Positions 3,618 to 5,360 of a DNA stretch of 64,000 nt are shown one piece after another. The DNA is from Acidobacteriota bacterium. Its GTDB lineage: Bacteria; Acidobacteriota; Vicinamibacteria; Vicinamibacterales; UBA2999. The notes below the pieces were generated by a model. The model was not told the origin of the DNA. It worked only from the letters and a program-made list of their open reading frames with translations, and did not search any database. Position 1 is the stretch's first letter; the number at the start of each line of letters is the position of its first letter. The position numbers and the translations under genes are program-made. Where the stretch lies: assembly GCA_016184455.1 (NCBI GenBank), contig JACPCS010000105.1, positions 1 through 64,000 on the forward strand, given 5' to 3'.

Positions 3618-5360
3618 ATGCTCCGCTTCCTCCGCATCCGCAGCCTTGCGGTGATTGAAGCCGTCGAGGTGGAGTTCGAACCGGGGTTCAATGTGCTGAC
3701 GGGGGAAACCGGCGCGGGCAAGTCGATTGTCGTCGAGGCCGTCGGGCTCCTGCTCGGCGCGCGCGCCTCGGCCGATCTCGTCCGCACGGGCGAGGCGCAG
3801 GCCTCCATCGAGGCCATCTTCGAAGATCTCTCGCTCGCGACGGGCCGCGCGGCGGGCGAGATCGTCGTGCGCCGCGAGATCACGAACCAGGGCCGCAGCC
3901 GGTCGTTCATCAACGGCGCGCTGGCGACGGCGGGCGCGCTGCGCGATCTCGCCGCGCGGCTCGTCGAGCTGCACGGCCAGCACGAGCACCAGGCGCTCCT
4001 CGATCCGCAGATGCATCTGCCGCTCCTCGATGAGTACGCGGAGCTCGAGGATCGAGTGGCGCGCGTCGCCGAGGCGTGGGGCACCGTTCACGATCTGCGC
4101 GAGCAGCTGGAGCGGTCGCGGATGAACGAGCGCGAGAAGGCGGCGCGGCTCGACCTGATAGCCTTTCAACTCGGCGAGATCGAGAAGGCGGCGCCCGCGG
4201 TCGGCGAAGATGAGGCGCTCGCCGCCACGCGGCTGGTGCTGGCGAGCGCCGAGCGGATCGAGCGGCTGTGCGAGGAAGGGTATGCCGCGCTGTACGAGAG
4301 CGACGGCGCGGTGCTGGCCGGGCTCGCCGGGGTCTGGAAGCGCGTCGGCGAGCTCGCCACGATCGACCCGCAGTTTGCGCCGTACGTCGAGGCGCGCGAC
4401 GACATCAAGGGGCAGCTCGAGGACCTTGCGTTCTTCCTGCGGCGCTACGCCGACCTCGTCGACGCCTCGCCGCGGCGTCTGCAGGAGGTGGAGGATCGGC
4501 TGGCGCTGCTCGAGCGGCTGAAGCGGAAGTACGGCCCGACGCTCGATGACGTGATCGCGCGCGGGCGGACGCTGGCGCACGAACGCGAGCTGCTGACCGG
4601 CGCCGGGGAACAGGCGGAGGCGCTGCAGGGGAAGCTGAGCGACGCCACGGATCGCTATCTCGATGTCGCGCGCGATCTCTCGCGCCGGCGGCGGGACGCG
4701 GCCGGACGGTTCGCCCGCGCCGTCGAGACGCTGGTCGCCGAGCTGGCGATGCCGCAGACGCGGTTCGACGTCCGCTTCAACGCCGCGGCGCTCGGCCCGG
4801 ACGAGTGGTCCGAGCAGGGGATCGACCGCGCGGAGTTCTACGTCTCGCCGAATCCGGGCGAGCAGCTGCGGCCGCTGGCGCGCATCGTGTCGGGCGGCGA
4901 GCTGTCACGCATCATGCTGGCGCTGAAGACGATGGCCGCGGAAAAAGGGGTCGGCGGTCATTTTTCGAGGACAGCGGTTCTTGCTTCGTCTCCGCTGTCC
5001 TCGAAAAATGACCACCGACCCCTTACGCTCATCTTCGACGAGGTCGACGCCGGCATCGGCGGGCGCGTCGCCGAGGTGGTGGGCACTCGCCTCCGGGCGC
5101 TCGGCGATCGGTTCCAGGTGCTCTGCATTACCCACCTGCCGCAGATCGCCGCGCACGGGACGACGCACTTCCGCATCGAGAAGGCTGTGCGGGGAGGACG
5201 GACGGTGACCTCGGTCGAGCGGCTGAGCGACGGGGGCCGCGTCGAGGAGCTGGCGCGGATGATCGGCGGGGCCGTCGTGACCGATCAGGCGCGGGGCACC
5301 GCGCAGGAGATGCTCGCGGCGGGGGCGAAAGGCGAAAGCGAAAGGCGAAAGAGACGGTAG
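3618..5360 (+). CDS. recN: DNA repair protein RecN
   Basis: N-term MLRFLRIRSLAVIEAVEVEFEPGFNVLTGETGAGKSIVVEAVGLLLG; SGGELSRIMLALKT and TLIFDEVDAGIGGRVAEVVG. Carries an in-frame palindrome insert. Confidence 0.93.
   Translation: MLRFLRIRSLAVIEAVEVEFEPGFNVLTGETGAGKSIVVEAVGLLLGARASADLVRTGEAQASIEAIFEDLSLATGRAAGEIVVRREITNQGRSRSFINGALATAGALRDLAARLVELHGQHEHQALLDPQMHLPLLDEYAELEDRVARVAEAWGTVHDLREQLERSRMNEREKAARLDLIAFQLGEIEKAAPAVGEDEALAATRLVLASAERIERLCEEGYAALYESDGAVLAGLAGVWKRVGELATIDPQFAPYVEARDDIKGQLEDLAFFLRRYADLVDASPRRLQEVEDRLALLERLKRKYGPTLDDVIARGRTLAHERELLTGAGEQAEALQGKLSDATDRYLDVARDLSRRRRDAAGRFARAVETLVAELAMPQTRFDVRFNAAALGPDEWSEQGIDRAEFYVSPNPGEQLRPLARIVSGGELSRIMLALKTMAAEKGVGGHFSRTAVLASSPLSSKNDHRPLTLIFDEVDAGIGGRVAEVVGTRLRALGDRFQVLCITHLPQIAAHGTTHFRIEKAVRGGRTVTSVERLSDGGRVEELARMIGGAVVTDQARGTAQEMLAAGAKGESERRKRR
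4945..5024. repeat. 33-bp-arm inverted repeat inserted in frame in recN
   Basis: aaggggtcggcggtcatttttcgaggacagcgg (4945-4977) pairs with ccgctgtcctcgaaaaatgaccaccgacccctt (4992-5024), 32/33 matches, 14-nt loop. Confidence 0.95.

Follow-up and report, generated by a model that had tools for sequence, protein, structure and literature searches.

The conversion of selfish DNA into protein sequence is best known from intracellular bacteria. The palindromic elements of Rickettsia and Wolbachia (RPE and WPE) are inserted in frame in genes (reviewed in PMC10969869), and WPE-like inserts occur in addA, addB and priA (PMC4224334). For REPs carrying the GTAG or CGTC tag, Di Nocera and co-workers (2013) found that intragenic copies are frequent in genes of replication and repair such as uvrA, uvrB, dnaE2 and recB, and that the recB genes of two Xanthomonas species are hit by REPs at about the same site (PMC3733652). 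The same paper described Y1 genes in Acidobacteria that are flanked by long TIRs, some of which bear the motif GGGGWSAS and copies of which can be dimers. In Acidobacteria the corresponding transposases, the TIRYTs, make up a clearly delimited group (PMC3733652).

Here we describe a palindrome in the recN gene of an uncultured acidobacterial genome, contained in a 64,000-nucleotide stretch of DNA (hereafter the window). It is very probably a mobile REPIN-like hairpin, itself probably mobilised in trans by a Y1 transposase, that inserted in a loop of recN, left the frame open and gave a product that is probably functional. The palindrome would be a non-autonomous hairpin built from two inverted GGGGTCGG..GGACA arms and a variable apex, one of a population of about 26 copies most likely moved in trans by an arm-flanked Y1 (HUH) transposase. 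One copy would have entered the stretch of recN that encodes a surface loop linking the signature helix to the Walker B strand, displacing a few loop codons. Its length of 76 nt (1 mod 3) and its stop-free frame would have kept recN open, yielding a RecN whose extra loop, about 26 residues long, is disordered.

Comparison with described elements

The element is REPIN-like and belongs with a transposase of the RAYT/TIRYT kind, with GGGG as its tag; neither GTAG nor CGTC, the tags of classical REPs, is present in the arm GGGGTCGGAGGTCATTTTTCGAGGACA. Its closest class is the TIR repeats of TIRYT transposases, which are probably TnpA-Y1 subclass 2.1 of PMC6006769, and it behaves like a REPIN. As in the TIRYT/TIRtron systems (PMC3733652), a Y1 gene lies between long inverted repeats that are also scattered as dimers. 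The TIR motif GGGGWSAS, which occurs in only some TIRs, agrees with GGGGTCGG at 7 of 8 positions, with G for A at one base. The present population differs in consisting of about 26 short-distance pairs with paired, variable apices, some of them in frame inside genes, whereas the intragenic repeats of that paper are of the GTAG/CGTC type, unlike the TIR/GGGG-type repeat found here.

With the REPIN/RAYT system (Bertels and Rainey 2011, PMC3116915) the element shares inverted REPs separated by a less conserved spacer, a hairpin fold, a transposase gene, present once, next to a copy of the repeat and a mostly intergenic distribution, but it lacks GTAG, numbers only tens of copies, and shows symmetric arm variants and intragenic copies. 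The intragenic GTAG/CGTC REPs (PMC3733652) resemble it as in-frame dimers that encode 20-30 residues, often in repair genes, but belong to another repeat family in another phylum. RPE and WPE, compared here by description, are likewise palindromes that sit in conserved genes without breaking the frame and seem to be tolerated, as are the copies in recN, uvrC and other genes described below; they are longer (RPEs about 150 bp) and reside in obligate intracellular hosts.

In-frame insertion events of this kind, and a preference of intragenic REPs for repair genes, are thus already known (2013, PMC3733652). New are the recurrences in recN and mutS2 within a family of uncultured Acidobacteria, the empty site in the same genus and the in-frame coding use of a TIR/GGGG-type repeat. 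The genes recN, mutS2, uvrC and mfd are unnamed in the main text of PMC3733652, and our literature search found no report of REPs in recN. The locus offers a clean case of selfish DNA turned into protein sequence beyond intracellular bacteria, with the in-frame element tied to a transposase gene that has the same arms.

The palindrome in recN

The recN gene (positions 3618..5360, forward strand) is an intact reading frame of 580 codons with no stop or frameshift. Its product belongs to the RecF/RecN/SMC family in Pfam, and the nearest solved structures are those of D. radiodurans RecN. Against the same-genus relative, dN is 0.125 and dS 0.66 (dN/dS about 0.19). The ABC signature SGGELSR (residues 425-431; 4890..4910, forward strand) includes the invariant columns S425, G426, G427, E428 and R431. 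Walker B, LIFDE (residues 471-475; 5028..5042, forward strand), includes the invariant F473, D474 and E475. Between the two, as the original prediction had it, a palindrome at 4945..5024 is read in frame as (K)GVGGHFSRTAVLASSPLSSKNDHRPL(T), directly followed by Walker B, and the order in the protein is SGGELSRIMLALKTMAAEK-GVGGHFSRTAVLASSPLSSKNDHRPL-TLIFDEVDAG.

A repeat search returned a single inverted repeat with 33-nt arms, 97% complementary and 14 nt apart. The left arm is AAGGGGTCGGCGGTCATTTTTCGAGGACAGCGG (4945..4977, forward strand), and the genome consensus is GGGGTCGGAGGTCATTTTTCGAGGACA; the apical loop of 14 nt (4978..4991) differs in every copy, and the right arm (4992..5024, reverse strand) is complementary to the left at 32 of 33 positions. 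Folded as DNA, the element reaches -40.4 kcal/mol against -12.1 +/- 2.4 for shuffled sequences (z -11.8), and as RNA -64 against -25.6 kcal/mol. From GGGG to CCCC it measures 76 nt, which is 1 mod 3, with a stop-free frame. The core of the arm has no second occurrence within the 64-kb window.

The distance from SGGE to DEVDAG is 55 residues in this RecN versus 33 in most relatives. The 33-residue spacing is also found in nearly all more distant RecN sequences that were read (Bacillota, Gammaproteobacteria, Gemmatimonadetes and others). The predicted figure of about 26 extra residues holds for what the element encodes but overstates the net gain, which is 22 because the insert takes the place of about 4-5 residues of the usual loop. 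RecN had also been called essential; it is a conserved, yet non-essential protein.

A hairpin population and an arm-flanked transposase gene

The source genome (4.73 Mb, 162 contigs) contains 32 forward and 28 reverse matches to the arm pattern, compared with 1 and 0 for a reversed control pattern. From these, 26 inverted pairs were extracted, with few arms left single. In a pair, GGGGTCGGAGGTCATTTTTCGAGGACA and its mirror arm flank an apex that varies in sequence and measures 20-33 nt, and the ends are mostly AAAT/ATTT; one pair of 760 bp encloses a gene, and one has no apex. Variants of the arm are symmetric (TTTTTCG/CGAAAAA, TCGAGG/CCTCGA, AAAGAGG/CCTCTTT, ATAGAGG/CCTCTAT and TTGGAGG/CCTCCAA). 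The apices are unrelated in sequence between copies, yet their feet pair at 116 of 144 positions; when left and right apices were re-dealt, 67.6 +/- 6.1 positions paired and none of 5000 trials reached 116. The symmetric arm variation and the apex pairing together make the hairpin the conserved unit. Arm changes and self-paired apices look as if mobilisation had copied one arm from the other.

The population has the hallmarks of REPINs: two inverted arms forming a hairpin, many copies and a prevalence of doublets. By codon-phase analysis, only the copies in recN and uvrC are both in frame and open; the other 24 of the 26 sit at phase breaks or stops, in keeping with the mostly extragenic distribution of REPINs. 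Across the six frames of 25 short elements, 38 of 150 frames are free of stops. Both certain in-frame copies are 1 mod 3 long (76 nt in recN, 55 nt in uvrC), a length at which the left arm's open frame (GVGGH..SRT) runs on into that of the right arm (SS.NDxRP). No obvious target-site duplication was seen in the flanks of the 26 copies, the alignment with empty sites covering recN.

One arm pair in the source genome encloses the gene of a 224-aa Y1 (IS200-like, HUH) transposase. Its terminal arms (L049, 1394-1427 and 2126-2159) are 34-nt inverted repeats, 97% complementary. The protein scores above the cut-off of Pfam Y1_Tnp (PF01797); against the NCBIfam model of REP-associated tyrosine transposases (NF047646) it reaches 64.9 bits over the full model, below the cut-off of 80. 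A Y1 gene between arms is also present in G014, G015 and G017. The proposed assignment to non-autonomous REP/RAYT-type elements is borne out by the 26 full copies, the transposase gene between two arms and the lack of the insert in the same-genus relative G001, and falls short in the GGGG tag and the missed RAYT cut-off. A second Y1 gene (L050) was considered as the partner and ruled out, having no REP arms around it.

Recurrence in the RecN loop of relatives

The genomes compared are mostly fragmented, metagenome-type assemblies. Within family f1, the source genome, G013, G014, G015, G031 and G017 are rich in the arm pattern, G027 and G016 have few matches, and the other genomes, the same-genus G001 included, have none or almost none. 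G001 carries no REPINs, and its RecN, 81% identical to that of the window, has no insert. The RecN loop of G014 holds a left arm only, AAATGGGGTCGGGAGTCATTTAAAGAGGACA, and that of G013 a right arm only, AAAATGACTCCCGACCCCATTTAA. G015 has a palindrome with AGGACA..TGTCTTCG, which may be the apex remnant of an element or may have another origin.

Separate insertions into one RecN loop, with hits on several relatives, seem the simplest reading of these sequences. Every recN insert falls in a genome that has REPINs (hypergeometric p 0.0015 with four inserts and 0.009 with the three certain ones, among 34 family genomes whose RecN loop could be read, a number counted by hand). Each insert has the arm subtype of its own genome, GGGAG in G013 and G014 and the GGAGG family in the source genome. 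When the loop is left out of the RecN tree, a single clade of insert-bearing sequences is rejected (p-AU 8.8e-5 for four, 0.005 for three).

A single ancestral insertion in recN, which most lineages would later have deleted or excised precisely and which would have decayed in different ways in the source genome, G013, G014 and G015, is the best-surviving alternative, if an unlikely one. The same loop is occupied in all four genomes, and a clade of the source genome and G013 alone is not rejected (p-AU 0.12). Excision of the IS200/IS605 type can restore a site precisely, which counts in its favour. However, relatives without an insert have the exact 33-residue spacing seen across bacteria and family-like loop residues, so that many exact losses would be needed. 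The presence of inserts also tracks genomes that are REPIN-rich today, each insert has the arm subtype of its own genome, and the boundaries differ between genomes.

The RecN loop varies in length throughout the order, and one lineage has 46 residues with no palindrome. That lineage, together with L030 (another palindrome) and L060 (another repeat), has a longer RecN loop that is not due to this element. The longest distance seen from signature to Walker B, 77 residues, is in a RecN from another Acidobacteria MAG (L095).

In-frame copies in other genes

About 161 arms or pairs were scanned in nine genomes, giving 16 in-frame cases in recognised genes, 10 of them (raw counts) in repair or recombination genes. 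Elements lie in frame in recN of the source genome, G013 and G014; in mutS2 of G015 (L277), G031 (L303) and G017 (L307), always as a REPIN at one site between ARHPLL and VPVDI; in the error-prone dnaE2 of G013; in mfd of G027; and in the gene of an Lhr-like helicase in G016. The uvrC copy of the source genome (L165:260-2110, G000:C138) is a shorter one of 55 nt that has lost its apex and is read in the same frame as the recN copy, so that UvrC reads YRRFRVK-GVGGHLSRTLSSENDLRPHL-PDDVAAM. The non-repair cases are alr and trmFO in G015, deoB in G017, the genes of an FAA hydrolase and a VWA protein in G013 and that of a YfhO protein in G027. Left uncounted were phase-flagged, antisense-like reading frames with no family match (L173, L177, L244, L247, L275, L310, L334 and L341), L336, which was outside the family search, and L228, where the element lies upstream of the Yip1 domain.

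The repair bias was first noticed after four genomes and then sought in five more, where 4 of 6 new in-frame cases were in repair genes; two of these were further hits on mutS2, a gene known from the first set. Across the family the loops of mutS2 and uvrC vary in length, and other mutS2 members have variable, non-REPIN loops at the site. Tolerance of these two loops may explain much of the bias. That the element population is targeted to genes of repair and recombination (recN, mutS2, uvrC, dnaE2, mfd and lhr), or retained there, is an idea to which we give little credence. If true, a mobile hairpin and its single-strand transposase would time and again alter the very repair machinery by which they are processed. 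With one RecN loop and one MutS2 loop (in three genomes) filled repeatedly, such a preference can be tested in a family with empty sites. A practical warning also follows for alignments of RecN, MutS2 and UvrC, in which loops can be repeat-derived and not functional signatures. In the family, the UvrC loop after YRKFRI (L197-L226) often contains other in-frame short repeats, for instance arrays of GGGATCA or GGGCTTC heptamers together with their inverse.

Predicted structure and probable tolerance of the insert

In an AlphaFold2 model of RecN built with 60 RecN sequences, the mean pLDDT is 90.3, and the only values below 50 are those of two segments of the insert, 445-448 and 452-465. On either side, the helix (426-443) and the strand (470-474) are intact and the head fold is kept. 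The insert is thus predicted to be a disordered surface loop of about 26 extra residues. Two possibilities had been raised, that the loop tolerates the insert or that the insert has been domesticated. The former fits better, because the loop is naturally length-variable, the insert is predicted to be disordered and other relatives hold only decayed halves. RecN with the insert is probably functional; we infer that translation runs across the element, that activity is retained and that the insertion is near-neutral.

Co-option, in which the hairpin would tune translation or mRNA stability of recN or the extra loop would have a role, is very unlikely. The RNA hairpin is indeed very strong (-64 kcal/mol) and repair genes hold 10 of the 16 in-frame copies, but the loop residues are unconserved between genomes, two relatives retain half-elements only and the loop is predicted to be disordered. 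Furthermore, other repeats occupy the equivalent UvrC loops, and MutS2 loops vary freely. Least credible of all is a repeat misjoined into recN during assembly: the element is repetitive and the assembly fragmented (162 contigs), but the frame is exact, the flanks are continuous with recN on both sides, the same loop is filled in independent assemblies, and the recN copy has private substitutions (GGCGG/GGTGG) that occur together in no other of the 26 copies. At the 3' end of recN, tandem GGCGAAA units at window positions 5324-5351 encode the final residues of the protein.
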